A stretch of DNA of 27,480 nt, taken from positions 1 to 27,480 of IMG/VR virus record IMGVR_UViG_3300010296_000059. One strand, given 5' to 3'. A model generated the notes under the pieces. That model had not been told where the DNA came from and searched no databases. It saw nothing but the letters and a program-made list of their open reading frames with translations. Positions 7,008 through 25,997 of this stretch are shown in pieces. Within the stretch, counting starts at the first letter, position 1. The number at the start of each line of letters is the position of its first letter. Source of the DNA: a virus. Position numbers and translations under genes: made by a program.

Positions 7008-9284
7008 ATGGCAAAGAAAAGGTTTAACAAATTTGGATTAAAGAGAGACTTGAATTTATCTGATGTTCCTGATAAAACTCTAGCTCTCAACAACCTTTTA
7101 TCTGGTCTTGCTACAGGCACGGAAACTTTTACTACAGAAGATTTAAATGTAATAAAAAATATAAACTTAACAAATGTAACAAATTCAACATTTGAATCTG
7201 TCTCAGATATTACTGTTAAAAAATTAACGTCAAATGGTCAATTAAGAACATACGATCCTCTAATTACATTATCAAATAGATTTGATAAAGCATACTTTAC
7301 CACAGCAAATCCATTTTTCTATGGTGGTGATGGACTTGATGCAACTTATTACGATACAGAAGCAATCATAAGAACAACTCCTGGAGACGCATCAAGTGAC
7401 TTTACTGGTATAAATTCTAACCTAGTATTAAAATCAGATAACGAATGGGGATTTGGCGATTTTCTTTTTGGATCCAAATTTACAACAGAAACTTCCACTT
7501 CTTTTGGAGCAGTTCAATGGGAAGGATACATCAAACCATTTGTTGATGGAGACCATACATTAGTAATAAGGACAAATTGTTTTCTAAAAGTAGAATTTGA
7601 CGACAAAACTGAATCAAGAGATTTTACTTATAATCCAAGTAAAGATACATATGATTATAACAACTATGATTTTACAAAACTAACTACACTAGTAGACAAA
7701 ACAAAACTAGATCAATCAAACGACTTAGAAACTGCAGTTATTAATGGAACATCACAATCTCTTGGAACTAATGAATCAAATTCTATTTCTTTAGGTTCTT
7801 TAGTAGCTTGGGAAGCATATAAAATAAGAATAACTTTGTTCGTAGATCAAGAATCTGTTCCAGAAAATAGATTTATAGATAAAAAAATTGAATTTAATTT
7901 AATACCTCCATCATCTAGCGTTTCAACAAATATTAACTACAAACTTTTATACGGGAAAAATTATTTTCAAAACTACGACATCGGAGATTTTAAAGAATTT
8001 GTTGACAACTCTATTAGTGTTGGCGGAACAGAGGTAGGATTAAAAGGAACTATTGGAGATGTTCAAGGAACTTTTGAAAGTCAAACTCCAGGAATTGGAG
8101 ATAGTTATAGCAATGTAAATAATATAAATCCAATTATTTCATATTACAAATTTCCAAATAGTAGAACAGATGTAGAAAATATAATAAGTGGATGTAATAT
8201 TACGAGTGGCGTAGACACCATCAGTATTTCAAATAATTTACCAAGTTCAACTGAAGGAATAGAAACTGGAAATTATGTATTTGGTCCAGGTATTCAGTCA
8301 GGAACTAGAGTTGTAACAGTTGTAGTTAATAATAGTATACAAATATATCCATCTCCTACTCAAACTACCACTAATACAGATTTAACTTTTGTTGATCACA
8401 GAGGGTTAGTTGCATATGGAACAGGAGATGTTTATGAAAATAGAATTGATAATATAACAAATGAATTCAACCTTACAGATATCAAAGAAAATCAAATCGT
8501 TTTATCTAATGGTCTTTCTTTTTTATATGATGATAGTATTGCCAACATCTCAAACATTAATGCAGTAGGAAGATTGTCAAGTGAATATAACGGAACAACA
8601 ATCTTATTAAAAGATTCTAATACTACTTTAATAGGAAACCAATTATTTTATGTTTATGAAACAACAGGTCTTGTAGATAATGGTTTAAAAAATTTCTGTC
8701 AGGGAGTTTTAAAAGCAAGATTACTAGCATCACAAACTGATACAACTTCAAATAGTGTTGATATTCTTTTAGACGATGTTACTGGCATTACAACAAACAT
8801 GTTTGTACATGCATTTCCATCCGTAAACTTTGCTCAAAGATTGGATGGAACAGCAGATGAGTTGTATAGCAGAGTTCAAGTAACTAACATTAACGGAAAC
8901 ACATTAACTATTACTGGCATTGGTGGAGACCCTGCATTATTATCTGGTCTAGAATACAACCCCGCAAAGATTAAAAATATTGTATTTACAGCAACAGATG
9001 TAAACAAAGAGGTATGTTTTAAACCTACTGATACATCACCTCCATTCTCTGCAAATGCTTCTGGTTTAACTACACCATTTGATGTGGCACTAGTGAATGA
9101 TTTTACTAGTAATGGTGGAGGGGTATTAAATAATGATTCAAAAGTAACTTACTCTGCTTTAGAAATCAAACACGATACCAATATTGCTGGAAATGTAATA
9201 ACATACAACAACGAAAATGTAACTGAGTATCTACCAATAGAAGATGTGGAAGGAAACAATTTTTACATTTTACTAGGTAGCTGA
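7008..9284 (+). CDS. Tail fibre/adhesin with PA14-like domain
   Basis: 758 aa. Residues 12-30 (LKRDLNLSDVPDKTLALNN) match the N-termini of the 454-aa and 1111-aa proteins, suggesting a shared virion-docking motif. Residues about 102-205 look like a PA14 carbohydrate-binding domain: GGDGLDATYYDT opens it and VQWEGYIKPFVDGDHTLVIR with LKVEFDD resembles the PA14 core. The rest is Asn/Thr/Ser-rich beta repeats typical of phage fibres, with no cysteine-rich region. It ends EGNNFYILLGS, like the end of the convergent 454-aa protein. Likely role: recognition of host surface glycans. It is the only plus-strand gene in the fibre block and its last 12 nt overlap the convergent neighbour. Structural role is confident; PA14 assignment is moderate. 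Confidence 0.85.
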   Translation: MAKKRFNKFGLKRDLNLSDVPDKTLALNNLLSGLATGTETFTTEDLNVIKNINLTNVTNSTFESVSDITVKKLTSNGQLRTYDPLITLSNRFDKAYFTTANPFFYGGDGLDATYYDTEAIIRTTPGDASSDFTGINSNLVLKSDNEWGFGDFLFGSKFTTETSTSFGAVQWEGYIKPFVDGDHTLVIRTNCFLKVEFDDKTESRDFTYNPSKDTYDYNNYDFTKLTTLVDKTKLDQSNDLETAVINGTSQSLGTNESNSISLGSLVAWEAYKIRITLFVDQESVPENRFIDKKIEFNLIPPSSSVSTNINYKLLYGKNYFQNYDIGDFKEFVDNSISVGGTEVGLKGTIGDVQGTFESQTPGIGDSYSNVNNINPIISYYKFPNSRTDVENIISGCNITSGVDTISISNNLPSSTEGIETGNYVFGPGIQSGTRVVTVVVNNSIQIYPSPTQTTTNTDLTFVDHRGLVAYGTGDVYENRIDNITNEFNLTDIKENQIVLSNGLSFLYDDSIANISNINAVGRLSSEYNGTTILLKDSNTTLIGNQLFYVYETTGLVDNGLKNFCQGVLKARLLASQTDTTSNSVDILLDDVTGITTNMFVHAFPSVNFAQRLDGTADELYSRVQVTNINGNTLTITGIGGDPALLSGLEYNPAKIKNIVFTATDVNKEVCFKPTDTSPPFSANASGLTTPFDVALVNDFTSNGGGVLNNDSKVTYSALEIKHDTNIAGNVITYNNENVTEYLPIEDVEGNNFYILLGS

Positions 9285-10637
9285 ATCAGTTAAAAGTAAA
9301 TTATATTCTTCACCATTAATAAGGACTGGAAGTTTGTGAGTAAACTTTTGATTTGGAATAATATTAGGAGCACTTTCAACAACCACAGATTGAATATTGT
9401 CAACAGAAATTGGATCTCCTTTTAATATCATGTTACCAATACTCATTTCTTGTTGAGTTGGATCGCTTCCAGCACCTAAAGAAGCAGCAGAATATTCTAA
9501 TGTAGACGTGTTAAGTTCCCATGGTGATGTGTTGTCAGAGAATGATCGCAACTTAATAATATTTTCTTTTGAAGAATTTGGATCAAGAATAAAAACTCCA
9601 GGACTTGTTTCTCCAAATATTTCTGCCGTTCCATCATTAAAATTATCTGGATCAATAGTAGTTAAACTTCCCTCAATTTTAATAGGATTTTCCGAAAAAA
9701 CATTATTAATTGATCTAACATATTTTGTTTGCTTAAAGAAATTAGAAGAGTCTAATATACTTTCAAGGTAATTAAAATTATCATTAATGCTTCTAAATCT
9801 AATATTATTTGAAAATGAAAATTCTTGTGTTTCTTCTACTACATTTTCAGAGTCTGGAAATACAAGATTAATTAAATTTTGTTGGGTGACTTCATTAGTA
9901 CGTTGGAAAACTAATGGGTTATCTACAGGGTCAGATAATAAAATTGGATTGACTAATTGACCTCTTACATATTCTGTTGCAATTTGAAATCTATCAGTTC
10001 CATTAGACAAAACAACATAGTATTTTTGACTATATGATAAAGGACTTGGTAGAGGTAAGTATTCGTTTATAGCATAAACATATCTAGTATTTTGATCTGG
10101 AGGAAGATTAACAGATGGAGCATAGTTTCCAGGAGGATTAGTAAATCTATCAGAATACCCAGTATCTTCTAATACTAAACTATTAACAGAAGTAATAGAT
10201 TTTATTAAAAATCCTTTGTCATTAAAAAATGTAGGGGATGGACCATCAAAATAAGAATCAACTATTGTCATTCTACTGCCAATAGAATTATTATTTAAAT
10301 TATGATTTCCACTAAATGTAATTGTTAGTTCATCATTTACATAATCATATACAATATCATTAATTTTTCTTGCACCTTTAAAGTTTATTACATCACCATT
10401 TCCATAACAAGACAAAAGATCAAAAGTAAATAAAGTACTTTGTCCTAAAACAGATACAGAAAATCCTTCTTCGCCTGGTTTATATAAAAGTTTAGTTGAA
10501 TTTTTAGTATTGGCATAAAAAACTGAGAGGTCACTTGAAATGCTACCTCCACCTAAGTTGTTTATAGTTAGAGTTTTGTCAGGAGTTTCTTCTAAATTTA
10601 AATTCCTGACATATCCTTGATTAGCTGTTATTGCCAT
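9273..10637 (-). CDS. Tail fibre/virion structural protein
   Basis: 454 aa. The N-terminus (YVRNLNLEETPDKTLTINNL, within residues 9-28) matches the convergent 758-aa protein and the 1111-aa protein. The middle has the beta-rich segment YVVLSNGTDRFQIAT, of a kind common in phage tail proteins. The C-terminus (KLPVLINGEEYNLLLTD) resembles the end of the 758-aa protein. The ATG overlaps the stop of the 1111-aa gene by one base (TAATG), so it is the last gene of the leftward fibre operon. No enzymatic motif. Likely a short fibre or fibre tip; could be an adaptor linking the leucine-rich-repeat protein to the baseplate. Confidence 0.82.
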   Translation of the reverse strand: MAITANQGYVRNLNLEETPDKTLTINNLGGGSISSDLSVFYANTKNSTKLLYKPGEEGFSVSVLGQSTLFTFDLLSCYGNGDVINFKGARKINDIVYDYVNDELTITFSGNHNLNNNSIGSRMTIVDSYFDGPSPTFFNDKGFLIKSITSVNSLVLEDTGYSDRFTNPPGNYAPSVNLPPDQNTRYVYAINEYLPLPSPLSYSQKYYVVLSNGTDRFQIATEYVRGQLVNPILLSDPVDNPLVFQRTNEVTQQNLINLVFPDSENVVEETQEFSFSNNIRFRSINDNFNYLESILDSSNFFKQTKYVRSINNVFSENPIKIEGSLTTIDPDNFNDGTAEIFGETSPGVFILDPNSSKENIIKLRSFSDNTSPWELNTSTLEYSAASLGAGSDPTQQEMSIGNMILKGDPISVDNIQSVVVESAPNIIPNQKFTHKLPVLINGEEYNLLLTDSAT

Positions 10638-13600
10638 TAGTTACTTATCTGAACTGACCAACCTTTTGATCTTAAAAATTCTGCTGCTGCAATACCAACA
10701 AAGACACTAGTGTCTACTACGGAAGTAATACTTTGAACTGTCAAATTCAATTCTCTAGTTATTATATTTCCAGTTATATCTTCAAATCTAATATTTGATG
10801 GTGTTGTTAATTGATCATCAACAGAATAAAAAGCTCCACCACTATTTATTGTTACAGCATAATTTGCACTATTATAATATCTCTCAATAACAGAACTAAC
10901 ACTAACAGTAACATCATTTTGTATAGTGATAGTATCTCCCGCAGTATATCCTGCCCCTCCAGAAACTAGAGTTACTCCTGTTACTTTTCCATTACCATCA
11001 ACAGAAACAGATACTTGAGATGCACTACCACCTGTTGGTGGATTCTCATCAGCAAATGTTCCACTAGTGTATGGAGATAGAGTATCAGAAACACTAGTAA
11101 CATCAATTACAATAGTATTTTGAACAGTAATAGTATCTCCTACAATATATCCTTCACCACCAGATAAAATTCCTACATTAGTAACTTCACCATTTACATC
11201 AGTAGTAATAGTAACAGAGGCTGCAACACCTCCTGCTGGTGGATTTTGATCTGTAAAATTACCAGAAGTATATGGAGAAGATGGGGCATTATAAGTTCCC
11301 AAACCATCAACTATACCTTGCGATTGAATATTTCTAGGTGCGCTAAATGAAGTTGATATTTGCGTAACAGCATTTTCATCATAACTAGAAGAAACATCAA
11401 ATTTTATTTGAGATGATACTCCACTTCCACCACTAAGATTAAACGTATAACTTTGATTTACAGGGAAGTAATTAAGAGGGACATTAATATTATTACCAAA
11501 CCCAGTTATCACACCATTTTCAATCGTAGGTTGATTGATAGGATCAAATGCAGATATGATTCCAGGCGTTACGGGGTATGGAGAAGGAGAATCATTTGAT
11601 CCACTTAAATTAACTACTACAGATCCACGAGTAAATGCATTGTAATTATCAACAAGATCAAATAATATATTATCAACTGCAGTTGTAGATAATGAATTTA
11701 CAGAAAGATCTAAAGATTTTAATTTTGATAATAACTCAAGTCCAGAACTCCTAGCGTAACTAGTGTATTGATTGTTAGACAAATCAACTATTTCTACATT
11801 AGGACAAGACACTCCTAAATTAGGCAAACTACCAGTAAAATTATTGGAGGATGCAAGTAAAGTTTTTAAATTAACTACATTAAAACCACTAGAAATAGAA
11901 TCTAGATTATTATTTGAAACGTTTATGTAACTCAAGGAAGATTTACTAGTGTATTGTAAATTGCCTGTAAAATTATTATCTTGCAAGAAAATATTTACTA
12001 TACCATTTGCACTAGCAAAGTTTGGTAGTGTAGATGACCATCCTTGACCATTACTTCTAACATCTACTAATGCATTACAAGTTTCTAAGTTTGGAAATGC
12101 TCCTGTAAATCTTCCTGCCGCATACAAACGAAGATTTCTAAGAGTATCTTCTACAGGAAGGAAAGTATTAACATCTACAGGACCAGCAAAATTTACATTA
12201 TTTACACTTAAGTAAAAATTTGTAAGAGATACAGAATCAATAAAAGTGTCATCATATAAACACTTTATATCTGTCCCTTTTTCTGGTCTTCCTGCAATTA
12301 AATTGTTACAAAAACGAAGATCAAGAGTTTTTAGACTTCTGTTCCCTATAAATTTTGGAATATATCCAGATACAGAAGTATTTGCATACAAAGAAAGTGA
12401 TTCAAGACTTGTACATCCACTAAACTTATAAGAAGCATCTGTTAGTCCTGTTGGTTCAGGTAAAGTTCCATCCCAGTTATTAAACAAAGATCCAAATCCA
12501 ATTGTATTAAATGTAGAAGAAAATGAAACTAAAGCACCTTTGTTTTGCATGTTGGGACAACTGAGTCTAGTAGCCCCAATATTAACTGATTTAATATTAT
12601 TACTAGCGATTTGAAAATTATTTTTTTCTAGATTACGATTTAAAAATACACTTAATGTTTCTAAAGAATTTAATTGTTCTATTGATAGTTCGTTGTTTGT
12701 ATTATTTGGTGATCCTATGCTTCTAAAGTCATTATAAGACGCATTTAAAAATCTAAGTTTATGCGTATCAGTATTATTAATATCACCAAAAAAGAAAGGC
12801 AATTCTCCAGTAGGATTTGTGCTATCTGGATAGAATATATTACTAGTGCTGCCAGGAGTGTTTATGTCTAAACGTATTAGATCTTCAAATTTTGTAAAAA
12901 TTCCTTGTTCAATGCCACCAACAAAACAATTTTGTAAATAAATTTCTCTAAGTGTATTTGGTAATTTATCAGCAATGTTTTGATTTAATCTTCTTTCATC
13001 TGCGTTACTAGAATTAAAGAATTTATTATTACGTAAGTCTAATTTTTCTAAAGAAAGTGCTAAGAAATTTACATCTGGAAAATCTACGAGTCCATTGTTT
13101 TGGAAAATCAAAGTATTTAAATTATCAAATCTTATTTTTGGAAGTGATCTTATGTTGCTATTGGAAATAGATATAGATGTAATTTGAAGAGGATTTTTAT
13201 ATATTTCAATAGTTCTTTGATCTGCAAGTGGATTTTTATAATCCAATCTATTTCCAAGGTTTGGAAAGTCTTCTATCCCTGAAGTTGATATGACTCTCCA
13301 ACTTGTAGACACTCCTCCGTTGGTTTCAATTTCTGCCAAAAAATTTCTAAAGTATCCAGTAAATTTAATTGGTATACCTTTCATTGCATAGATGTATTTG
13401 TCAACTCCATTTAAATTAATCTTAATTCTATGAGTTGGGACTTCAGAATCAAATTGTTTTGTATTTGCAATCGTTCTTGTTTTTATCTTACCAACTTTTA
13501 AAGTTCCACCAATTTCTACATCAGCACCATATGAAATGGTATTACCAATAGTGCTCCACGAACTTACTCTTGATGTAGAGATGTCACCCCATTTTAAGAC

Positions 13601-13972
13601 AGGCGTAGATCCAGGGGTTGCAGGGTCTGGTTCTGTATCTAGTATAGGATACCTAAAAGCAGTAGAACCAATTCCACCAGCAACTTTAAGATTTCCTCTT
13701 AATTGAAAATCAGCACCACCAGAGTCAGATAAAAGACCTGAGTAGGTTGTAACATCGTTTATGTATCTATCAAAAGTTTTCCATACAGGAACATCTAAAT
13801 TAGAAATAGTCTGAAGATCATCTCTGTCAAATCCAGAAATAGATATATCTCTAATAACTTCAAGATCTTTTTTATCAATACCAAGGTTTACTAAAGCCGT
13901 ATTTCTATCTGGAATATCAGCAAGTGATAAAGAAGCAGAAAGTCCAAATATCCTATCATTTTTAATAGCCAT
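10637..13972 (-). CDS. Leucine-rich-repeat tail fibre/adhesin
   Basis: 1111 aa. Residues about 9-31 carry the docking motif shared with the 454- and 758-aa proteins. Residues about 270-770 are leucine-rich repeats, for example SLEKLDLRNNKF, TLREIYLQN, SLKTLDLRFCNNL, LSYINVSNNNLDSI and LKSLDLSVNSLS. Several have plant-type flavour (NNFTGSLPNL, RFTGAFPNL, VSGYIPKFIG), matching the LxGxIP extension. Residues about 899-1030 hold two 67-residue repeats (SPYTSGxFxDxNPPxGG ... GGxGYxxGDTITxQN), then a GGAFYSVDDQL copy. Leucine-rich repeats form curved protein- or glycan-binding solenoids, so a host-recognition role is inferred. It lies in the late fibre operon, 4 nt after the 1403-aa gene. Such repeats are not typical of T4-like fibres. 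Confidence 0.9.
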   Translation of the reverse strand: MAIKNDRIFGLSASLSLADIPDRNTALVNLGIDKKDLEVIRDISISGFDRDDLQTISNLDVPVWKTFDRYINDVTTYSGLLSDSGGADFQLRGNLKVAGGIGSTAFRYPILDTEPDPATPGSTPVLKWGDISTSRVSSWSTIGNTISYGADVEIGGTLKVGKIKTRTIANTKQFDSEVPTHRIKINLNGVDKYIYAMKGIPIKFTGYFRNFLAEIETNGGVSTSWRVISTSGIEDFPNLGNRLDYKNPLADQRTIEIYKNPLQITSISISNSNIRSLPKIRFDNLNTLIFQNNGLVDFPDVNFLALSLEKLDLRNNKFFNSSNADERRLNQNIADKLPNTLREIYLQNCFVGGIEQGIFTKFEDLIRLDINTPGSTSNIFYPDSTNPTGELPFFFGDINNTDTHKLRFLNASYNDFRSIGSPNNTNNELSIEQLNSLETLSVFLNRNLEKNNFQIASNNIKSVNIGATRLSCPNMQNKGALVSFSSTFNTIGFGSLFNNWDGTLPEPTGLTDASYKFSGCTSLESLSLYANTSVSGYIPKFIGNRSLKTLDLRFCNNLIAGRPEKGTDIKCLYDDTFIDSVSLTNFYLSVNNVNFAGPVDVNTFLPVEDTLRNLRLYAAGRFTGAFPNLETCNALVDVRSNGQGWSSTLPNFASANGIVNIFLQDNNFTGNLQYTSKSSLSYINVSNNNLDSISSGFNVVNLKTLLASSNNFTGSLPNLGVSCPNVEIVDLSNNQYTSYARSSGLELLSKLKSLDLSVNSLSTTAVDNILFDLVDNYNAFTRGSVVVNLSGSNDSPSPYPVTPGIISAFDPINQPTIENGVITGFGNNINVPLNYFPVNQSYTFNLSGGSGVSSQIKFDVSSSYDENAVTQISTSFSAPRNIQSQGIVDGLGTYNAPSSPYTSGNFTDQNPPAGGVAASVTITTDVNGEVTNVGILSGGEGYIVGDTITVQNTIVIDVTSVSDTLSPYTSGTFADENPPTGGSASQVSVSVDGNGKVTGVTLVSGGAGYTAGDTITIQNDVTVSVSSVIERYYNSANYAVTINSGGAFYSVDDQLTTPSNIRFEDITGNIITRELNLTVQSITSVVDTSVFVGIAAAEFLRSKGWSVQISN
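10880..11278 (-). repeat. Two tandem 67-codon repeats in the LRR protein
   Basis: The copies start at 11278 and 11077, exactly 201 nt apart. Both encode SPYTSG(N/T)F(T/A)D(Q/E)NPP(A/T)GG and end with GYxxGDTIT(V/I)QN. The reading frame is kept, so it is a recent in-frame duplication or a selected beta-repeat. Confidence 0.85.
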
Positions 13973-13976
13973 ATTT

Positions 13977-16900
13977 TTACTGCTCTACGTAAGTTAATGT
14001 TCCTTGTATACTTCTATCATTATTTGGATCTGTTTCTTTTGATGTTGCTAAAAAGAAGTATGCTGTAGTATTTAGAAGATCTGGTGTAATAGTTTCCTTA
14101 TCAAAATCAAATATTTTATCATAGTCTATTGTTTTTGTTCCTTGTCCGATATAAATTTTATCAATAATTTCATATGGTCTTAACTGTGCTTGGTTTTGAA
14201 CATCAATAAGTGCAGATGACAACCTATCACTATCAACAAAATTTGGAGGTGCTTCATTTAAACTTCCAGTTGTCACCGTTGTATTTCCAATAGGACCAAT
14301 TTCAATATCTTCATTTGTAACAGTCATACTTTTAGACACAAACCAATTAGGATTATATGAGTTAACATTTTCTCCTTCTTCTTTTATCTCAAGACCGTTT
14401 GCTCTAGCACCATCTTTCATCTCAACAAAAAAGTATAATGGGAATGGATTATAATCAAAAGCTTTTGTCGCTAACTTCCTAAAACTCTCAAGAGATATAG
14501 GAATATACCATATAATAAGAGTAGTGATATTAGTTTGAGGTTGTCCAGGAAGATTACCTGTTAATTTAATAAGTTTATAAGTAACAGGATTTTGTGGATC
14601 AGATGAAGAATCACTATAAGTTATTATATCAGAATCAAAACGAATTCCAGATCCATTTACTGGTGGATTTACAGCATTTTGTGGATCACTTTGATTGAAT
14701 CCAACCTCAGCATTTTGTGGATTAAAATTAAAAGGGAACGATGTTGATCTTATATAATATGCATTTGGATCAAAAGTAGGATTACTTGCTTGAACATCTG
14801 CAAGAGGTAACTCAGTTCCATAAACCTGTTGACACTGAATAAACTGAGCTTGTTCTGTAGTTATTTTTACATAAGCACAAGACCCAGTGTTTGGTCCGTC
14901 TGGTTGAGGAATTCTATAATCAATTGTAAATGCTCGTTGTTGACCATTTACACTACTAAATTCACCTCGTTCATATCCATCCAAATCCCGACTAATTCCT
15001 TCAGAAAATCTTTCTGCAAATAATTTATAATCATCTGTAAATTCTCTAGGATTACCTTGAGAGTCATACCAATTTATTGTATCAACTCCATCAAATTCTG
15101 GTCTTAAAGAAGTAATTCCTATTTTATAATCTGCAAATTGATTACTAGAATATGATCCTTGGTCAGTTTTTTCACTTGATAAGAATAATAATGTATTTTT
15201 TGTTCCAACTACAGGAATAGGTGAAGCGGCTAGTGCATTATATCTAGACAATCTACCATTAAATTCAGAAGGATATAAAGCAAAACCAAAACCTTGTCTA
15301 AAGAAATCAGGTATTGTTCTACTGATTAAGTAATCTTCTAATTTAAATTGTTGAGTTCCAGCAACTGCTTCGCTATCAATTGTTCCTAAATTTACTGCAG
15401 TATATACGTTTTGTCCACCAATACTTAATAAACTATTATTATCATATTCTAAAATATATGTGTTATATATTCTAGAAGCAATCAACTTTGCTTTTAAATC
15501 TTGATCTAAAAATACAGGTTGTATTTGAACGTTTCCAGTATATACATTTGTTAACGAATTACTTAAAGTAACTACATTTGTATTGGTATCAATATCGGTA
15601 ATAATTGTTTCAGATGGTATTTCAGAAATGCTATTATTAAGATCAACAATATCTCCGATCCTGATGAAGTTAACATCAGATAGAGTTATTGTATTTCCAG
15701 AAGATGTAGTAACTTCTTTTGTTAATTCTTTTAATATTACTTTACTCCTATCATATCCACCAGAAATAGCAGGAAATACAAATGTTCTTTCATCACCAGA
15801 ATATCCAGAGTTTAAATTTGGTTGATAAGTATGAGAAAATCCAGGACATGCTTTACACTTTACAACTGTTATTTCTGTAAGTCCAGAAGATGACACAGAT
15901 AATTTTCTAGGAAATATTTGTTTTTTATTTTTAATAATTTCACCTAAAGAATTAGATAGCGTAGTTTTTGGTTGAATTGCTACTACAGTAGTAGACAATT
16001 CAGCTCCACCAGATTCAAGAGGTGCAGTCTTCAATGCTGATGTAGCAGATCCAACCTTAAGTGTTCCTTCATCACCTCCATCAATATAACAGGATGTTCC
16101 ATATTTGTATATGTATTGAGGTGTAGTAACATTAATGTGATCAAGTGTTACAAGAGAGTATCTAAATTTATAATATGGATCTCCCATACAAGGTTTTCCA
16201 AGTTTATTCTCAATAATAAGTCTATGTAACTTAACCCATCTTGCTTCACCATTATTTACAGGAACATATGCATAAAATTGAACACCAATAGCACCATACC
16301 AACCAAATTCAATCTTGTACATAGTGACATTTTCAGCACTCCATAAATATCCACTCGGACCATTGCCATTCAATTGATCTCCATTCCATTTATCTCTAGA
16401 GATAACAGTCTCATATACTCGTTTATTATCAAGTCCACTAAATGAATTGTTTTGAGTATCTTTTGTTATTAAAACTTGATCCTCAGGATTTAATTTATTT
16501 TCTTCTAGTACTTCATCTTCTAGAGGTACAATACTTCTTCTTACAATACTAAAGTTAGATCCTCTAATTTGAAAAACTAAATCGTCTGTATTATTACCAA
16601 TACCCCATTCAATAATAACGTTATTATCATCTCTAGCATCATTAGATGCTCTTACACCAAAAGTATAACCACTAATTCTTCCTGGTTGATATCTAAAAGC
16701 TTTTCTAGACTCAAGATAACCTCTTGTTTGCAATCCAGTTGAATATCCTGGACGCGATAACTCATCTGACAATATTGTTCCAATAAGTCCAAGCGGTTGT
16801 TGTATATAAGTTAAAATTTTACTTAGATTTTGAACATAGTCAGCATCAAGAGGAGAAAGATTAGGACGAAGAAATTCTCCCTTTATCATTTTTCTATAAA

Positions 16901-18188
16901 CTTCAGTCCAAGTATCAATTTGCGCAAACAATTCTTCATTTGAATTGTAATATGGATTTAATGGAGTAATAAAGTTAGAAAAATATAAATCACTACTACC
17001 ATAAGTCATATCATATCTAATTTCTGCAGTAGATCCAGATTGTGATCCTTCAATTGGTATAAATTCAACTGTTGGTTGACTATTAGTAAACACATATCCA
17101 ATATCTTCATTAAAATGCATAACTCTATCAACCATTCTATAGAGTTTTACTGTACCAATAACTTGACCAGTATCAGTTCTTGTAATTGTTTCCCCATCTT
17201 CAAAACTTAATATTGTATTTCCAAGTTCATCAGTCTGAACATCAGGACCATCTTCTACATCAAATAGTTCTACATGATTTGGAACATACGGGAGAAAATT
17301 TAGCGCATATTCTGGATTAGAATCTTTATATTCATCATAAAGTAATGCACCTATTTTCAAAAATGTATTAAATTTAACATATGACTCAGAAGAAAATGCT
17401 CCATCTCTAGGTCCATATGGATATCCATATGGAACTCTATATGATTCTAACGCAATTGCAGCTTCTTCTTTTACTTCACGTGCTCTTGATCTATAATGAT
17501 CTCCATATATTTTGTTCTTTCTATTTTCCCATAAGGCACCACCATTGGAGTCTCCACTATCTCTACGATAAAAAATAAATTCATCTTCATCTAGTCCGTA
17601 AGTAGATACATTAGAAAATAATCCCAATTGTTCTTCTGCTTTAGGATAACCTAAAATTGTAGTACTTACTTCAGTAAATGTAGGAAATTGTTCTTCTATT
17701 TTTAAATTTGGATTAGCAGTAAAAAAATTTATTTTTATTAGTTCACCAAACAATTCTAAATTTTGTGTGACAGCAGTAGCAATTTGACATGTATCATTAT
17801 TGTCTACACTTGTTATTGTTCTAGTTTCATAAACTCTAGTAGATCCAGTAAATCCTGTTGGAAGTAAAAGTTTATCACCAATATTTAATTCTTGTGTAAA
17901 CAATCCTGTTCCAGGTTCTGCAGTTATTATATTTCCAGTTGCATTAAAATTTTTACCACTCAACTTTACATTTTTTTGTTTGGTAATTTTGGGTTCATCT
18001 GTATATACAATAGAAGTTGCTTTAGCAGATGAAGCTTCAGAAGTCAAAAATGTATCTTCAGCAGATACAATAGGTGTTCCACCTTCATCAGTTAATATTT
18101 GTCCCGTTGTTAGATTGTACAACGGGACATTTTGATTAATTAAAGGAGCTGGTCTTTTATCATTACCAACTTTAATGTCTCTTGCCAT
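13977..18188 (-). CDS. Giant tail/baseplate-associated structural protein, paralogue A
   Basis: 1403 aa. It shares with the 1613-aa neighbour an N-terminal LGYPKAEEQLGLFSNVSTY segment (about 178-200), FRYQPGRISGYTFGVR (about 500), the core VTMYKIEFGWYGAIGVQFYA then NGEARWVKLHR (about 620-660), KYGTSCYIDGGDEGTLKVG (about 695-715) and the C-terminal QGTLTYVEQ. Most of the rest is beta-rich. These landmarks recur in large uncharacterised structural proteins of marine T4-like phages; role is inferred as long tail fibre or baseplate whisker. No enzymatic motif seen. AGGAG within the end of the upstream gene provides a ribosome-binding site, and only 3 nt separate the two genes. A Cys-x-Ala-Cys (VVKCKACPG, about 778) is a possible metal site. 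Confidence 0.85.
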   Translation of the reverse strand: MARDIKVGNDKRPAPLINQNVPLYNLTTGQILTDEGGTPIVSAEDTFLTSEASSAKATSIVYTDEPKITKQKNVKLSGKNFNATGNIITAEPGTGLFTQELNIGDKLLLPTGFTGSTRVYETRTITSVDNNDTCQIATAVTQNLELFGELIKINFFTANPNLKIEEQFPTFTEVSTTILGYPKAEEQLGLFSNVSTYGLDEDEFIFYRRDSGDSNGGALWENRKNKIYGDHYRSRAREVKEEAAIALESYRVPYGYPYGPRDGAFSSESYVKFNTFLKIGALLYDEYKDSNPEYALNFLPYVPNHVELFDVEDGPDVQTDELGNTILSFEDGETITRTDTGQVIGTVKLYRMVDRVMHFNEDIGYVFTNSQPTVEFIPIEGSQSGSTAEIRYDMTYGSSDLYFSNFITPLNPYYNSNEELFAQIDTWTEVYRKMIKGEFLRPNLSPLDADYVQNLSKILTYIQQPLGLIGTILSDELSRPGYSTGLQTRGYLESRKAFRYQPGRISGYTFGVRASNDARDDNNVIIEWGIGNNTDDLVFQIRGSNFSIVRRSIVPLEDEVLEENKLNPEDQVLITKDTQNNSFSGLDNKRVYETVISRDKWNGDQLNGNGPSGYLWSAENVTMYKIEFGWYGAIGVQFYAYVPVNNGEARWVKLHRLIIENKLGKPCMGDPYYKFRYSLVTLDHINVTTPQYIYKYGTSCYIDGGDEGTLKVGSATSALKTAPLESGGAELSTTVVAIQPKTTLSNSLGEIIKNKKQIFPRKLSVSSSGLTEITVVKCKACPGFSHTYQPNLNSGYSGDERTFVFPAISGGYDRSKVILKELTKEVTTSSGNTITLSDVNFIRIGDIVDLNNSISEIPSETIITDIDTNTNVVTLSNSLTNVYTGNVQIQPVFLDQDLKAKLIASRIYNTYILEYDNNSLLSIGGQNVYTAVNLGTIDSEAVAGTQQFKLEDYLISRTIPDFFRQGFGFALYPSEFNGRLSRYNALAASPIPVVGTKNTLLFLSSEKTDQGSYSSNQFADYKIGITSLRPEFDGVDTINWYDSQGNPREFTDDYKLFAERFSEGISRDLDGYERGEFSSVNGQQRAFTIDYRIPQPDGPNTGSCAYVKITTEQAQFIQCQQVYGTELPLADVQASNPTFDPNAYYIRSTSFPFNFNPQNAEVGFNQSDPQNAVNPPVNGSGIRFDSDIITYSDSSSDPQNPVTYKLIKLTGNLPGQPQTNITTLIIWYIPISLESFRKLATKAFDYNPFPLYFFVEMKDGARANGLEIKEEGENVNSYNPNWFVSKSMTVTNEDIEIGPIGNTTVTTGSLNEAPPNFVDSDRLSSALIDVQNQAQLRPYEIIDKIYIGQGTKTIDYDKIFDFDKETITPDLLNTTAYFFLATSKETDPNNDRSIQGTLTYVEQ

Positions 18189-18191
18189 GTA

Positions 18192-21100
18192 TCACTGCTC
18201 CTCCCAAGTAAGACTTGCTAAAATTTCTGCTCGTTTTCCATAAGAACCAGTTCCATCTCCATCATTATAGAATGATTTAGAAGATGCACAGACATATAAA
18301 GAATCAACTAAATCAGTTAATGGGAATGATAGGTAGTCTTTGTTGTAATCAAAATATGGTTGTAATTCATATTGTTCACCAGTATTTGGTGCAAATAATG
18401 TAGTAACAACAGTACCAGTTCCAGGAATTGGAGATCTTTGTTCAGTATCTATGGCGACTGCAGATAGTCTTGATAAGGAAGAAGTAAAGAATCCGTTAAA
18501 CGTTGAGTTTTCTACAGTAGTTGTAAGATCTGGATCAGATGGTCCAGGTCCAGACCAGTTTTTAATTCTTAAGAATGTTCCTCTAATATTGAGTTCATTA
18601 ATACTTACTTCACTAGCACTAAAGTAATATTCTCCATCAGTTTTTTCAAGTAGTCCAAGAGCTGTAGATGCAACGCCAGAAGTATCATTAACTAAAGTAT
18701 ATCTAAAGTAACCATAAGTTTTCTGACCCTCTAGCAAATAAGTTCCAGTTTCAGTAATATCAGTAGAAGGTAGAATAATTTTCTTTCCTCTCTTACCAAT
18801 ATTAATAGCGCTGTTAACAGAAATACTTGCTCCAGATTCTGGAACATCAAATGTTTGGAATAATGGAGATTTGATTAATTGAATAGCAACAGATTCAGAT
18901 ACATTAGTAAGACCAGTTGCCAGTCTTGTTGGATAAATTTGAACTCTGTTTCTAACACCATTAATTTCTCTTCTACACTTGATGCCAACAAGAGGTTGTG
19001 ATCTATCAACCACTAAAGATATATCACCAGTAGTTGCAGTTAAGTTTCTACTTAAATATAATCTTCCATTAGAAGAATCTGCCCAAACAACTCTAATGTC
19101 TTGGTCAATTGCACTACCAGTAATAACTCTAGCATTAATATAGTAGTCACTGATAGGAGGAGCACCATTAGTATTAGCAATTGTAATAGCAGGAGCATTT
19201 ACATAAGTACTTCCTGGAGCTACATCTAATTTTGTGTTGGCACTATCAAACAGATTAGGATTCTGAGATGCTTGTATTAGATACTTAGATCCACCAATCT
19301 CTTTTAGTGTTTCTGATGCATAACTAAAGAGTCTTACAGTTCCTCTATCGCCACCATCAATATAATATGATGCACCATACTTAACAAGTTGTTCTGAAAG
19401 CGATCCATATCCAGAAGAATTATTAAATTTTCTATCAGAATTTTGATATCCATATCTATTTTGACTTCCTCCACCATATACCATATACGTAATTGGAAGT
19501 GTGGCATTACCAAGAGAAGCAACCTTTAATTGGTTAGATGCTCTTAAATGATGAACTCTTACCCATCTTGCTTCACCATTGCCTACAGGAACATATGCAA
19601 GGAAAGTAGCACCAACAGCACCATACCATGAGAATTCAATCTTATACATGGTAACTTTGGTTGGATCTAAATCCCAAACACTTTCAAATTGCAATTGATC
19701 TTGTGTTGTAGGATCTTGTACAGGGTCACCTGCTCTCTTATCTAATACATTATCACTATAAACAATATCAGTTGTAATACCATTTAGTTTTTCACCACTC
19801 ATTCTAGAACGAGGGACACGATACTCATAAACTTTATAGTATCTTGGATCTACATTAAACCAAACCCAATTCTTATACAATCTTTTGTTTACATAATTAA
19901 ATTGTTGTTTTAGTGTAGAAATGCCTGTACTACCACCGAGAGTAGAATCAATATATCCAGATGCATTTGTATCATCTGGTGTAGCACCAGATGGATATAA
20001 GTAAGGGAATGCTCCATCAGAATAAGAATTAGCTTGATCGTTTAAAGATCCATCTGTATAATTCTGTCCTTTATATTTTCTAGAATCATCTGGTAGAAGG
20101 AATGGTACTGGAGTTTGAAGTGTAAACCCTGATGCAGAAATATCTAAGGTGTCTGAACCTGCAGAGAAAGGTATTAGTACATCATTTTCATCAACAAGTT
20201 CTTCAATAACAAACTCTTCTGCATCTGGATATGCTTTTGTAGAATTATTAACCCATGGATTAGATGAATTAGAAGTAGATCCTCCACCAACTGCGGTATA
20301 AATTTCTTCGTTATTTGGATGCTTAGATAATCTAACTTCCTGATAAACACCAAAATTATCACTAGTAATATTTCCTACTGCAAAAACATGCCAAATAGAT
20401 CCGTCTGGTAAAACATTTTCAGATCCATCTCTAACGTTGTTTGTAGATGCATTTTTGTTAAAATAAATTCCTTGACCAAGTTGAAGAAGTTCTGCTCTTC
20501 TTGGAATTTTAATTCTCATCCATAAATTAACATTATCATTGAACAAACTTATAATTTGATACGAGGTTTTCTCTTTCAATAGTGATGGATCAAATGCAGC
20601 TGCATGAGTCATTACCAATCCATCTCTGTAAATGCACATTTCACCAGCGGCAGAACCAACTGGATCTGGAATAGAACTATAGTTACCAGTTCCAGTAAGT
20701 GCAGTTGTAAGAATATTAATTAGACCACTAACAACAGAATACGCACCATTTTCAACGCTAGGTAAGGTTCCAGATATACCAGCATATGCACTATATCCTC
20801 TTAAAGGACTTAAGTATGGAGCAGTTGGAGCAAATGCTATGACCGCATTAGGATCAGCACTCACAAAAGTATGATCAGCTGTATCAGATGATGTTCCTAC
20901 ATCAATAGTAATTGTTGTTGCTGTTACAGATTCAACTCTTACACCTCTATTGTATGCTGGGTCTGCCTTACCAGTATTATCACTATTACTAGTTCCAATA
21001 CCAATTCCATTTTCTCCACTTGCTCTAGGATACAATTTAGTAACAGTATTACTATCAGAAGTACATGTAAATCCTAAAGATTCTGGTTGAAGAAGAACAG

Positions 21101-23033
21101 AAGTGCCAGGTTGAATACTATGCGAACCAATATTTAAAACTAACAATCCAGTTGCTGGATCATAAGAAGTTCCACTTACTTGAGGAGTAAAATAAGTAGG
21201 TTGGTATGCCTTAACTGCATCTGCATCAGCACTTACAAAAGTATGAGCAGAAGTATCAGAAGAAGTACCAACCTTAACAGTAATTGTTGTTGCCGTTCTA
21301 GCAGTAATTTCAACAGCAGTATTGTATGCAGGATCTGGTTTTCCAATATTGTTATTTGATCCTGGATTTACAAGAGTTCCATCTTCACCACTTGCTCTTG
21401 GATAAGTTTTTTCTTTTGATGGATCTAATGCACAAGTAAATGTTAAAGAATTTGGTGCTAATTGAACTCTTAGTCCTGGAACAAGATTATTAGTTCCAAT
21501 ATCAAGAGTTAAATCACCCGTTGCTGGATTATAAGTTGTTGCGGGTCCTGGAGTGAAATAAATTTCATTTGATAGACCAAAAATATCACTAATACTATTC
21601 AAAACTGCGGTGTATCTTGCAACTTCTATTGCAGGATCGTCAACATATAATCTAATATTATCTAAATCTGATTTATTAAAGAACCTCAAAGTATTAAAGA
21701 CTGTGCTTGCATTTCCACCATACTTAAGATCGTGGAGAATGCCTTCAATAACTAAACCAGAGTCTCTACGACACTTATCATACTCCGCATTTTGTGCAGA
21801 ATAAACAGTTACTGCATCTGCGTCAGCACTTACAAAAGTATGAGCAGCAGTATCAGATGATGTTCCTACATTAATAGTAATTGTACTTGCAGTCTCAGCA
21901 ATAATTTTCAAATCATTATTATATGCTGGATCTGGTTTTCCTCTATTGTCACTAGTGCTTGTACCAATACCAGTTCCATCTTCGCCACTTGCTCTAGGAT
22001 AAGATTTTATAGTAGGACCACTAGTACATGTAAATCTTAGTGATTCTGGTTGAAGAAGAACAGTATCTCCAATTTGATGTCCATGTCCATTAGTAATGGT
22101 AAGTGTTAAATTGCCAGTAGCAGGATCATAATTAGCAGCAGTTGGTTGATAAACACTAGGAGCAGTTCCTCCAGCATCTACATCCAATCCATCCAAAGAA
22201 TTTGTTTCAGTATTAATAAAGTCTGCCGCTACTTCTTGAAGAAATCTTTTGTTTGCTTTTAATACTTCGTATGCATGAGGATAGGTTGGCGTTTCCGATT
22301 CAACTTGAGGAACACCAGCCCAAGCATAATCTTGCGATTGATAATCAGCGTTAGAACTAAAAGGAAGAGGGTTATCTCTTATAATAGATTGAGTTCTTCT
22401 TATGCAACTAAAGTTATCACCATACCCATCATTCCTTGACTCAAAATAATATCCATCAAACTTGTCAAAGATACCATATTTTTTTAAAGATTGGTTTCTA
22501 ACAGAATCAAATGTTGGATCATTTTTTGTAATGCTATATGGACCACGATTAATTTTAACACCAAACGTAGCAGCAGAGACACGTCCTGGTTGGTATCTAA
22601 AAAATCTTTTTGATGTAAGAATAGAGTATTCATCAGAAGGTGCTTCAATCATAGCACCTGCTTCTTCAGCAATGTGTGTCAGACCCCAGTCTTGATTACC
22701 ACCATATCCTTCATACTTTTCCAGAAGAGTGCTGCCATCTGGACCATATTGATTTAATGATGTAAATTGCTCAGGAAATGCTGTCCATTCTGTAGGATTG
22801 ACATCATATGTATTAACGTCAGCAAAAATACCAAGAGCAACTTCAGATCTTGGAATACCTAATAAAGATAGAGCAACTTCAGATTGTTGTTTGTTCTGCT
22901 CTTCTACTGGAATTGCAGATTGATCACTTGCAATAACTACAGGAAGTGATTTTGCTGAAGTTTGTTGCCCTGAAGGGACTGGTGTAGTCCTTCCAATAAC
23001 AACAACAGATGAATTATTATTTACAGCTGCCAT
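18192..23033 (-). CDS. Giant tail/baseplate-associated structural protein, paralogue B with tandem repeats
   Basis: 1613 aa. AGGAG lies 6 nt before the ATG and a late promoter lies at 23077-23084. The N-terminus (VPSGQQTSAKSLPVVIASDQ, about 19-38) is of a type seen in many marine phage virion proteins. The core shared with the 1403-aa paralogue is split: LGIPRSEVALGIFADVNTY (about 58-76) and FRYQPGRVSAATFGVK (about 144) lie before, and MYKIEFSWYGAVGATFLAYV and KYGASYYIDGGDRGTVRLF (about 1126-1240) lie after, three copies of a roughly 110-residue repeat inserted at about 302-735. The C-terminus LASLTWEEQ matches QGTLTYVEQ. Likely an elongated fibre whose length is set by the repeats. It is the largest gene in the window; function is inferred from family context only. 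Confidence 0.86.
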   Translation of the reverse strand: MAAVNNNSSVVVIGRTTPVPSGQQTSAKSLPVVIASDQSAIPVEEQNKQQSEVALSLLGIPRSEVALGIFADVNTYDVNPTEWTAFPEQFTSLNQYGPDGSTLLEKYEGYGGNQDWGLTHIAEEAGAMIEAPSDEYSILTSKRFFRYQPGRVSAATFGVKINRGPYSITKNDPTFDSVRNQSLKKYGIFDKFDGYYFESRNDGYGDNFSCIRRTQSIIRDNPLPFSSNADYQSQDYAWAGVPQVESETPTYPHAYEVLKANKRFLQEVAADFINTETNSLDGLDVDAGGTAPSVYQPTAANYDPATGNLTLTITNGHGHQIGDTVLLQPESLRFTCTSGPTIKSYPRASGEDGTGIGTSTSDNRGKPDPAYNNDLKIIAETASTITINVGTSSDTAAHTFVSADADAVTVYSAQNAEYDKCRRDSGLVIEGILHDLKYGGNASTVFNTLRFFNKSDLDNIRLYVDDPAIEVARYTAVLNSISDIFGLSNEIYFTPGPATTYNPATGDLTLDIGTNNLVPGLRVQLAPNSLTFTCALDPSKEKTYPRASGEDGTLVNPGSNNNIGKPDPAYNTAVEITARTATTITVKVGTSSDTSAHTFVSADADAVKAYQPTYFTPQVSGTSYDPATGLLVLNIGSHSIQPGTSVLLQPESLGFTCTSDSNTVTKLYPRASGENGIGIGTSNSDNTGKADPAYNRGVRVESVTATTITIDVGTSSDTADHTFVSADPNAVIAFAPTAPYLSPLRGYSAYAGISGTLPSVENGAYSVVSGLINILTTALTGTGNYSSIPDPVGSAAGEMCIYRDGLVMTHAAAFDPSLLKEKTSYQIISLFNDNVNLWMRIKIPRRAELLQLGQGIYFNKNASTNNVRDGSENVLPDGSIWHVFAVGNITSDNFGVYQEVRLSKHPNNEEIYTAVGGGSTSNSSNPWVNNSTKAYPDAEEFVIEELVDENDVLIPFSAGSDTLDISASGFTLQTPVPFLLPDDSRKYKGQNYTDGSLNDQANSYSDGAFPYLYPSGATPDDTNASGYIDSTLGGSTGISTLKQQFNYVNKRLYKNWVWFNVDPRYYKVYEYRVPRSRMSGEKLNGITTDIVYSDNVLDKRAGDPVQDPTTQDQLQFESVWDLDPTKVTMYKIEFSWYGAVGATFLAYVPVGNGEARWVRVHHLRASNQLKVASLGNATLPITYMVYGGGSQNRYGYQNSDRKFNNSSGYGSLSEQLVKYGASYYIDGGDRGTVRLFSYASETLKEIGGSKYLIQASQNPNLFDSANTKLDVAPGSTYVNAPAITIANTNGAPPISDYYINARVITGSAIDQDIRVVWADSSNGRLYLSRNLTATTGDISLVVDRSQPLVGIKCRREINGVRNRVQIYPTRLATGLTNVSESVAIQLIKSPLFQTFDVPESGASISVNSAINIGKRGKKIILPSTDITETGTYLLEGQKTYGYFRYTLVNDTSGVASTALGLLEKTDGEYYFSASEVSINELNIRGTFLRIKNWSGPGPSDPDLTTTVENSTFNGFFTSSLSRLSAVAIDTEQRSPIPGTGTVVTTLFAPNTGEQYELQPYFDYNKDYLSFPLTDLVDSLYVCASSKSFYNDGDGTGSYGKRAEILASLTWEEQ
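20833..22130 (-). repeat. Three ~110-codon repeats in the 1613-aa protein
   Basis: Copies at about 21801-22130, 21205-21533 and 20833-21164. Each begins Y(D/N)PATG, continues with L.L.I and (V/S)LxFTC, a KxYPRASGE segment, PAYN, then TATTIT(I/V).VGTSSDT and ends HTFVSAD. Spacing is 597 nt then 369 nt because extra sequence separates copies one and two. Confidence 0.88.
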
Positions 23034-23090: not shown

Positions 23091-25880
23091 CTATTGAACT
23101 ACAGAGACTACTCCTTTTGCAATAACAAAATTTTGCCTTACTTGTAAATACCCACCACCAATTGTTGGTTGCAATGGATTAGCACTAACACTAATAAGTC
23201 CACTACCTGGATTTAACGTTCCATCAGATAATTCTATGTATGGAATCAAAGATATTTTGAACTCTGGGGATGCAACTTTACTTTCAATTCTCCAAACTTC
23301 TGTTGATGGGTTTGGACTATAATCATGAGATACCAGTTTTATGTAATCACCAACTGCTAAAGAATTATATACTGCTTCATTAGTAATATTAACATCATAA
23401 GTATTAGGATTATTTCCAGATGCTATTCCTGTCCCAACAACGTTATTGATATCACTTCCTAACGTAATATAATCAATACCAACAATTCTATAAACAAGAT
23501 AATTACTAGGTGTAGTTGTTGGGATATTATTAGTTTGATCTATAGGTAATTTAAATCTTATTTGACCTAAAGTTTTATCATCTAATGGATTTAGATTAGC
23601 ATCAAGTGGATTGAATTCTTGAAATTTTACCGCAGTAAGTTGGTTGTTAAAATCAACAGTCTCTACTCCATTAGAAACAGTAGCATTATATATTTCAAAG
23701 TTTACTACAGTATCAGTAAGATCTTTTGATTCTCCATTTTGTTGATATTGATAAACTGGTGTTTGAGTTTCTATTCCTGGAGTTACAGAAATATTAACAC
23801 CATCATAATCACTATCATACAGATCGGGAACTGGAATAAATTCGTCTGCAGGTCCAAGAACAATGTTATCAATAACATCAGTATTTACAGATCCATAAAT
23901 TCTAATACCAGTTCCACAATTTCTAACAACACAACCAGTCATTGAAATAACTTTTCCAGTAGTAAGATCTATTTCCCCTGGATAATTTTGGAAAGTAGTA
24001 TTGTTTATAGTAGTATTTTCAGTAGATGACATTAAAACACAAGGAGTTTCATATCTCTCTGTATCCATACCATCAATAAAATAAGAACCAAAGATAGAAA
24101 AATTCAATGATCCTTCTGCATAAATTGCTGGACCATATCCATTCCTAACTTTTACATTCTGCAATCTTACAAACTCACTATTAGGAAATGCCAATAGTGC
24201 ATTATTACTTTCAACTCCTAAATCACTAGACGGATATAAAATTTGATTCTCAGAATTTCCGTCAATTAACATGTCTCTTAAACTAAAATTTTTCAATCCC
24301 CATGTTTCTTGTGGTTGTGTAGCGTCATAATTTTCTCCAATAAACATAGCATTTTGCAATCCACTTAACTGAGACGAAGACAAGTTGCCAGTTGACCAGT
24401 ATTGCTTTGTAAACACTGTGCTGTCATCTAGTCCACGAAGAGTAAATGTGGTGGGAAGTTTAATTTGATCAATAAGATAAGTTCCACCTGGAACAATTAA
24501 AAACTTTGTGCCATCAGCATAAACAGCATCAATTGCATTTTGTAATGCACGAGTGTCATCATGATACAGATAAATTGTATATCCACTAGTATCTTGAATT
24601 AGTCCAGGAACATCAAGTGTTATTGTATTTGCCGTTCTATTAACTTCTCTTAAAGAGGCAAGTGTCCATCCTCTTTTTGGAGATGCTGGAGGTGTTAATG
24701 GAAAATGAACTGTATCATCTTTGTAACTACCATCAGCATTCTTTCTTGACCATGGAGAAATATCATATTCACAATAATCTTTAAATGATACTGTCAATCC
24801 ATTATCAAATTCTTTTGGTCCTAGTACATGAACTAATTTAAACTGAGGTTTGTTTGAACTATTAATAGCAATATTAGCTTCGTTGGCAGTATCAAACTCT
24901 GCTCTATAAACTAACAAACCATTTCCAGCATTTCTAGTAATGTTCAACAAATTATAGTTGCCTTCATTCATTTGATTTGAAGAAAGGTTTTCTACTGCAG
25001 TGTTGTACTGATTATAATCACTAATATCACCAGTGTCTAATCTAAATGATGCAAAAATATAAACATAAAAAGACTTTGGAATATTAACATTATTAAATAA
25101 AGCTTCTTCAGATATACCCTGAACTGTAGATCCTGTGGGAGCAACAGGCAACTCATTGACAGGTGTAGTAGTAGCACCAAATATTTTTACTTGTTGTAAA
25201 GTATTAAAACTGGAAACACTATTTAATTGTACTCTTAAATAAGTTTGCGAATTTTCATTGATAAATTGTGTCCCTAAAACTTCATATTGCGTTGCATCAC
25301 CAGAAGATCCATACTGATTGGCAACATCATATAAAGTTTCTGATGGTGTAATAAAATTATAAAAAACAACTCCATCATTTGTAAATTGCCACCTAGATTG
25401 AGTTGAATCCCATGTAATTTTTGCGTTCGTATTAGATCTCTCAAGAGAATCAGATGTTATTAATGATCCACTAGAAGTAACACTATTAAATGTAACGTTT
25501 GATGTTGTGCTAATATCTTGTACTAAACCTATATTGAGAGTATCGCCAGTTCTAGATAAATTAAAATTTGAATCTCCTAAAAAATTAATATCATCTGGTA
25601 CTGCGTTATTATCAGAAAGTCTAAGTGTTACAGAATTAGAAGTAGTACCATCTAATAATGATAGAAAATAATTATTGTTTAGATCAGTTGGATTGCCCCA
25701 GTTAACTCCAGTTGACGTTGATAGTAATACTTGTCCAGGTTCTCCTAAATCTCCATCTTTATCAGCAAGTGGTCCTAAAACTGATAAAGTTTTTGAAGTA
25801 TTAATCTGCAATCCTTCCAGGACTTCAACCTGTCCATCATTATCTAAATTAGTTAGTTGATTAGTCTTTACTAGGGACAT
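23091..25880 (-). CDS. Tail fibre with pectate-lyase-like beta-helix
   Basis: 929 aa. The N-terminus (about 46-62, LGEPGQVLLSTSTGVNWG) is a motif recurrent in cyanophage tail fibres, followed by SVTLRLSDNNAV and a NVTFNSVTSSG linker. About residues 435-680 resemble a right-handed beta-helix of the pectate-lyase-3 type: an opening DTRALQNAIDAVYADGTKFL then VPGGTYLIDQIKLP, followed by rung-like repeats (FSLRDMLIDGNSENQI, VRLQNVKVRNGYGPAIYAEG, TTINNTTFQNYPG, NCGTGIRIYGSVNTDVIDN). Such domains bind or cleave polysaccharide; I cannot identify catalytic residues, so cleavage is only possible. The C-terminus is beta-rich. It has its own late promoter (25915-25922) beside the tRNA. A receptor-binding or capsule-degrading fibre is inferred. 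Confidence 0.88.
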   Translation of the reverse strand: MSLVKTNQLTNLDNDGQVEVLEGLQINTSKTLSVLGPLADKDGDLGEPGQVLLSTSTGVNWGNPTDLNNNYFLSLLDGTTSNSVTLRLSDNNAVPDDINFLGDSNFNLSRTGDTLNIGLVQDISTTSNVTFNSVTSSGSLITSDSLERSNTNAKITWDSTQSRWQFTNDGVVFYNFITPSETLYDVANQYGSSGDATQYEVLGTQFINENSQTYLRVQLNSVSSFNTLQQVKIFGATTTPVNELPVAPTGSTVQGISEEALFNNVNIPKSFYVYIFASFRLDTGDISDYNQYNTAVENLSSNQMNEGNYNLLNITRNAGNGLLVYRAEFDTANEANIAINSSNKPQFKLVHVLGPKEFDNGLTVSFKDYCEYDISPWSRKNADGSYKDDTVHFPLTPPASPKRGWTLASLREVNRTANTITLDVPGLIQDTSGYTIYLYHDDTRALQNAIDAVYADGTKFLIVPGGTYLIDQIKLPTTFTLRGLDDSTVFTKQYWSTGNLSSSQLSGLQNAMFIGENYDATQPQETWGLKNFSLRDMLIDGNSENQILYPSSDLGVESNNALLAFPNSEFVRLQNVKVRNGYGPAIYAEGSLNFSIFGSYFIDGMDTERYETPCVLMSSTENTTINNTTFQNYPGEIDLTTGKVISMTGCVVRNCGTGIRIYGSVNTDVIDNIVLGPADEFIPVPDLYDSDYDGVNISVTPGIETQTPVYQYQQNGESKDLTDTVVNFEIYNATVSNGVETVDFNNQLTAVKFQEFNPLDANLNPLDDKTLGQIRFKLPIDQTNNIPTTTPSNYLVYRIVGIDYITLGSDINNVVGTGIASGNNPNTYDVNITNEAVYNSLAVGDYIKLVSHDYSPNPSTEVWRIESKVASPEFKISLIPYIELSDGTLNPGSGLISVSANPLQPTIGGGYLQVRQNFVIAKGVVSVVQ

Positions 25881-25925: not shown

Positions 25926-25997
25926 AGCGGGTGATCGGACTCGAACCGACGACATCTAACTTGGAAGGATAGCGTTCTACCACTGAACTACACCCGC
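25926..25997 (-). tRNA. tRNA-Gly (anticodon UCC)
   Basis: 72 nt. The acceptor stem is a perfect 7 bp (25991-25997 with 25927-25933), the D stem is GTTC/GAAC, the T arm is GTCGG-TTCGAGT-CCGAT, and the anticodon loop is CTTCCAA, so the anticodon is TCC. The anticodon stem CTATC/GTTAG contains one T-T mismatch. The 3' CCA is not encoded; the discriminator base is T. It would help read GGA/GGG codons, frequent in a low-GC phage compared with its host. Confidence 0.95.

Follow-up and report, generated by a model that had tools for sequence, protein, structure and literature searches.

A leucine-rich-repeat protein in a structural cassette of cyanomyoviruses is a candidate tail adhesin

Results

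We analyzed a virus fragment recorded in IMG/VR (27,480 nucleotides, hereafter the window) and found that a single unbroken minus-strand ORF of its structural cassette encodes a leucine-rich-repeat (LRR) protein, P0001, which is probably a virion tail adhesin of T4-like cyanomyoviruses with a concave LRR face that would recognize the cyanobacterial surface (Table 1). Tail-surface presence and receptor binding are both putative properties, 'virion structural' being the annotation of the homologue in the cultured phage S-TIM5. To our knowledge, few marine cyanophages have a receptor-binding protein that is known.

The LRR stretch proposed in the initial annotation was recovered by Pfam and AlphaFold2 alike, with 19 repeats of 21-42 residues (residues ~264-790) that follow the pattern LxxLxLxxN. 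LRR_8 and LRR_4 both match above their curated cut-offs (E 2.8e-9 and 2.9e-9, respectively; 37 versus 27 bits for LRR_8 and 37.3 versus 27 bits for LRR_4). Plant LRR receptor kinases head the phmmer search of the PDB (FLS2, E 4.6e-13), and a nine-member family profile matches FLS2 at 1.3e-41, a value inflated by the repeats. An AlphaFold2 model built from nine homologues has pLDDT mostly between 75 and 95 for residues 200-780 and is poor for residues 1-199 and after about residue 794. Structure alignment of residues 199-808 gave Z scores of 24-26 over 414-489 residues to the ectodomains of ERL1, BRL2, RGFR1, HAESA, BRI1 and FLS2 (Z 25.9, 462 residues, rmsd 4.6 for ERL1). Tandem repeats above the Pfam cut-off, together with a predicted solenoid bearing a parallel concave beta-sheet, place the protein in the LRR superfamily; the initial annotation was to be abandoned if structure prediction gave no solenoid, and the solenoid is predicted with high confidence. 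Pfam found no kinase domain in the protein, whose C-terminus consists of SGGxGY beta repeats, and does not list the BspA-type family LRR_5 for it, one relative scoring just 10.6 bits against a cut-off of 27.7.

We then asked how far the repeats are plant-type, as the FTGxLPN and SGxIP extensions had suggested. The strict motif [FLIVAWN][TSA]Gx[LIVFY]P occurs three times compared to 0.04 expected, and none of 5000 composition shuffles reached three, indicating that some plant-type repeats are real; because the motif occurs only three times, just a minority of the 19 repeats is clearly plant-type. The plant-specific LRR class, taken here as regular repeats of ~24 aa with LTGxIP in most of them, does not describe a protein with three strict motifs among 19 repeats of 21-42 residues, which we therefore regard as an LRR protein that has some repeats of plant type and not as a regular plant-specific LRR.

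Table 1. Genes of the structural cassette and parts of the LRR protein, in window coordinates.
Feature	Coordinates	Strand	Basis
Convergent gene P0006, S-TIM5 gp116 counterpart, N-terminal module in common with LRR protein	7008..9284	+	weak PA14 signal below cut-off
Downstream structural gene P0002, S-TIM5 gp117 counterpart	9273..10637	-	by position
LRR virion protein P0001, 1111 aa, counterpart of S-TIM5 gp118	10637..13972	-	Pfam, AlphaFold2, structure matches
C-terminal helix-strand AAEFLRSKGWSVQI, residues 1089-1111	10640..10708	-	conserved in every complete IMG/VR homologue
C-terminal SGGxGYxxGD beta repeats, residues 901-1056	10805..11272	-	P-SSM4 match; low-confidence beta strands in model
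LRR solenoid, residues 264-790, 19 repeats	11603..13183	-	pLDDT mostly 75-95; Z 24-26 to plant LRR ectodomains; repeat table
Solenoid part, residues 611-724, plainest plant-type repeats (FTGAFPNLE, FTGNLQY, FTGSLPNLG)	11801..12142	-	PDB/profile searches, repeat table
N-terminal domain, residues 1-258, presumed attachment part	13199..13972	-	most conserved (dN/dS 0.11); low pLDDT
Upstream virion structural gene P0003, S-TIM5 gp119 counterpart	13977..18188	-	phrog_1645 E 3e-36; S-TIM5/66 41% identity, part of gene
Virion structural gene P0004, S-TIM5 gp120 counterpart	18192..23033	-	PHROG-type matches, synteny
Beta-helix (pectate-lyase-like) structural gene P0005, S-TIM5 gp121 counterpart	23091..25880	-	position; PF12708 2.7e-5, below cut-off

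The cassette is shared with relatives in IMG/VR, two of them close (99% and 91% identity along the whole LRR protein). Several others have 53-59% identity, and two further types lie near 42-43%, one of which occurs in two contigs. Gene order is constant in each locus that is long enough, the LRR gene following two large structural genes and preceding a gene of 450-530 aa and the convergent gene. S-TIM5 has the same six-gene order from gp121 to gp116, with gp116 likewise reversed, S-TIM54 has the same six genes plus one extra small gene, and an additional S-TIM5-like contig (38% identity) keeps the order as well. This synteny supports a place for the LRR gene in a virion structural gene cluster. 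P0005 matches the S-TIM54 gene at the same place (E 4e-4). Within P0004, a ~100-aa repeat (YDPATGNLTL...QPESLRFTC...AHTFVSADADAV) related to DUF7243 and to cyanophage structural PHROGs occurs in about three copies, and P0002 and P0006 overlap at their ends by 12 bases. Promoter and terminator scans returned matches at chance level only.

In S-TIM5 the gene at the LRR position, gp118, is annotated as 'virion structural protein and packaging' and bears no LRR label. We found that the S-TIM5 and S-TIM54 counterparts align with residues 1-328 of the window protein (hhalign E 4.8e-17), that blastp links the gp118 family to the window N-terminal domain and first LRRs at 4e-7, and that a Foldseek search of predicted viral structures with the window model puts gp118 (H6WFW9) first (E 1.5e-13, 967 columns). 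Pfam places the S-TIM54 counterpart over the LRR_4 cut-off, with LRR matches in P0015/P0018. With synteny that includes the reversed sixth gene, N-terminal homology and an LRR fold beyond it, the window protein belongs to the gp118 family, and its S-TIM5 and S-TIM54 counterparts are diverged LRR homologues. A tblastn search of 50,697 phage records with the LRR region found nothing, though S-TIM5 carries a homologue; taken alone, that negative would have been misleading, and recognizing the homologue required synteny, profile and structure searches. Among the papers searched, none describes LRR proteins of cyanophage tails, and the LRR nature of the protein carried no label even where the virus is in culture.

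Outside the solenoid, the first ~60-100 residues of the LRR protein are homologous to the N-terminus of P0006 (hhalign E 3.3e-9), so that the two genes have an N-terminal module in common despite lying on opposite strands. The N-terminus had been described as tail-docking; the start of this domain is indeed common to a neighboring structural gene, which supports docking indirectly, and a conserved N-terminus common to P0006 leads us to infer that both proteins would attach at the same or equivalent tail positions. Attachment through this part is thus a prediction for a domain that, like the C-terminal one, was modelled without confidence. We also considered an invertible (Mu-like) cassette, prompted by the facing genes with a common N-terminal module, and rejected it, as there are no good inverted repeats and the orientation is the same in all loci. 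The predicted C-terminal fibre repeats correspond to the SGGxGYxxGD block, which resembles structural proteins of T4-like cyanophages (29.5% identity to that of P-SSM4). The terminal helix-strand AAEFLRSKGWSVQI is possibly an LRR C-cap displaced by this block, which may itself be an island-like insertion ahead of the cap; a search with the LRR spliced to the C-terminus returned no significant phage LRR protein with the same GWxV end.

Two relatives (1641 and 1415 aa; L009/L020) carry SGxGY-type and other beta-rich blocks within the solenoid, after about residues 419, 500 and 563 in window numbering, where the window protein has long repeats of 31, 42 and 36 residues. In a model of a 1016-residue segment of the longer relative, the solenoid runs unbroken past the inserts (462-497 residues aligned, Z about 25), the inserts themselves being of only moderate model quality. 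BRI1 too carries an island insertion. The islands probably add or change binding surface.

To locate a candidate binding face, we compared concave-facing positions (2, 3, 5, 7, 8 and 10 of each repeat) with the remainder of the protein. Mean entropy among six homologues is 1.28 at concave positions, 0.77 in the rest of the domain and 0.46 in the core (p 1e-10). Against the 91%-identical relative, dN/dS follows the same order (0.55 for the concave face, which remains below 1, 0.25 for other LRR positions, 0.11 for the N-terminal domain and 0.06 for the core). Between the window and the 99%-identical contig, the LRR gene differs by 16 nonsynonymous and 2 synonymous codons compared to 43 and 43 in its neighbors (p 0.003), a ratio of small numbers from metagenome assemblies that may include population chimeras. 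Rapid change on the concave side is what one expects of a binding face when selection shifts, and it argues against a passive structural role, making host recognition, as originally proposed, the likeliest role. In laboratory co-evolution of another cyanophage, early mutations fell mainly in structural and adhesin-like genes (PMC9910659).

A rival explanation, to which we give limited weight, is that the protein is a structural connector whose solenoid binds tail or baseplate proteins (e.g. the adjacent beta-helix or PA14-like protein) and that another protein contacts the host. The gene does sit among several large structural proteins, one of them beta-helix-like; every cassette contains it, and it diverges in step with all of its neighbors. 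However, an assembly interface should be conserved, yet the concave face evolves fastest in the LRR, although a fast-changing partner could produce a similar signal through co-evolution.

We next assessed whether the LRR is a recent acquisition from a host gene, eukaryotic (algal) or cyanobacterial, and consider this very unlikely. The closest solved structures are plant receptors and some repeats are plant-type, but plant LRRs are over-represented in the PDB and the repeat carries little information. The LRR, the N-terminal domain and three neighboring genes vary together in pairwise identity (Spearman 0.88-0.94), the LRR tracking its neighbors in every pair, which indicates that it was inherited along with the cassette, and the diverged homologues at the same place in S-TIM5 and S-TIM54 indicate that it is ancestral to it. 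No close LRR homologue was found in 300 picocyanobacterial-family genomes (best and sole match 4.2e-5) or in 292 other cyanobacterial genomes (best E 6.7e-4). The sole picocyanobacterial-family match looks like a secreted protein and has plant-type repeats of textbook form (LTGRIPPALGNLTNL). In a picocyanobacterial-family genome (G055), L108:829-1923 encodes a 364-aa protein whose plant-type LRRs are nearly perfect. As bacteria have plant-type repeats too, a eukaryotic donor need not be invoked. There is no sign of recent transfer, and the suggested origin from a bacterial or eukaryotic LRR gene could not be traced.

Least probable of all is that, instead of serving as an adhesin, the protein is ejected or works within the cell as an LRR effector: the bacterial effectors SlrP and XopL are among its weak generic matches, but at 15-16 bits against cut-offs of 500-1113 these reflect the repeat only and were rejected as an identity, the protein has no catalytic domain, and its gene lies in a structural cassette with an N-terminal module common to another cassette gene.

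Finally, we examined which viruses carry the cassette. A 144-kb contig with the cassette (L019, IMGVR_UViG_3300047510_001256) has a gene for the T4-type major capsid protein Gp23 (E 5e-142), and its terminase is 81% identical to that of T4-like Synechococcus phages; by these sequences it is a Gp23-bearing T4-like phage. Neither protein family was detected in the S-TIM5 or S-TIM54 genomes, so the cassette is common to T4-like cyanomyoviruses and the S-TIM5 lineage, which suggests cassette exchange between two myovirus lineages. Assignment of the window itself to the T4-like phages would rest on kinship with the 144-kb contig and on its transaldolase, 79% identical to the counterpart in T4-like S-RIM32. 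Other cyanomyovirus-typical genes in the window are psbA, ferredoxin, a high-light-inducible-type protein and a glutaredoxin-like protein (named by sequence inspection, with psbA and transaldolase backed by searches).

Several smaller features of the window were also recorded. By inspection, a small HNH/recombination-endonuclease-VII-like ORF (191-616, -), possibly a homing endonuclease, adjoins psbA. Two ORFs (4317-4769 and 4598-5521, +) overlap by ~170 bases in different frames, as they do in three relatives (L014, L015 and L016), and the second may start elsewhere or involve a frameshift. A tRNA-Gly (anticodon TCC; 25926-25997, -) sits at the border of the adhesin cassette, immediately upstream of the beta-helix structural gene, and a small ORF (26485-26739, -) that adjoins the glutaredoxin-like gene resembles the Phd-like antitoxin annotated beside transaldolase in related cyanophages.

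Discussion

We propose that the conserved N-terminal module would attach the LRR protein to the tail and that the 19-repeat solenoid, predicted from sequence and structure modelling, would present a concave beta-sheet face able to bind a surface protein or glycan of a Synechococcus/Cyanobium-type host. The concave face diversifies as the hydrophobic core and N-terminus stay constrained, and the protein is a member of a six-gene structural cassette shared with the S-TIM5 lineage; beta-rich modules lie in the C-terminal part and, in relatives, form islands in solenoid loops. A broader and more tentative proposal, which we hold at somewhat short of even chances, is that a plant-receptor-like LRR ectodomain serves cyanomyoviruses as an evolvable scaffold for receptor binding, diversified by concave substitutions and by beta-rich islands in solenoid loops, and that the tail cassette carrying it moves between unrelated myovirus lineages.

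These results name a concrete receptor-binding candidate with a defined candidate binding face in the cultured phages S-TIM5 and S-TIM54. They also place a fold best known from plant immune receptors within the structural cassette of a prokaryotic virus, and the presence of an adhesin cassette in two myovirus lineages bears on how host range spreads among ocean viruses.

The nearest known counterparts are S-TIM5 gp118 (YP_007006107.1, H6WFW9) and S-TIM54 UYE97282.1 of the genus Aurunvirus, which occupy the same cassette place, are of similar size, have an LRR fold over most of their length and share a homologous N-terminus and first repeats with the window protein; they differ from it in having about 23-25% identity, no SGGxGY block and no LRR annotation. 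The plant LRR receptor ectodomains (ERL1, BRI1, HAESA and FLS2) have the same LRR solenoid fold and some LxGxIP-type extensions, whereas the window protein is about 20% identical to them, lacks a kinase domain, has irregular repeats of 21-42 residues and is encoded in a phage structural cassette. Leptospira LIC11098 and the BspA-type LRR protein of Vibrio phage vB_VhaM_pir03 (PMC7765460) are prokaryotic and phage LRR proteins thought to act at surfaces, but no N-terminal module or synteny is known in common with them, and BspA-type repeats are another LRR class. The YadA/SGGxGY-type structural proteins of the T4-like cyanophages P-SSM4, P-SSM3 and P-RSM3 resemble the C-terminal beta-repeat module of the window protein, and they match that block only and not the LRR.
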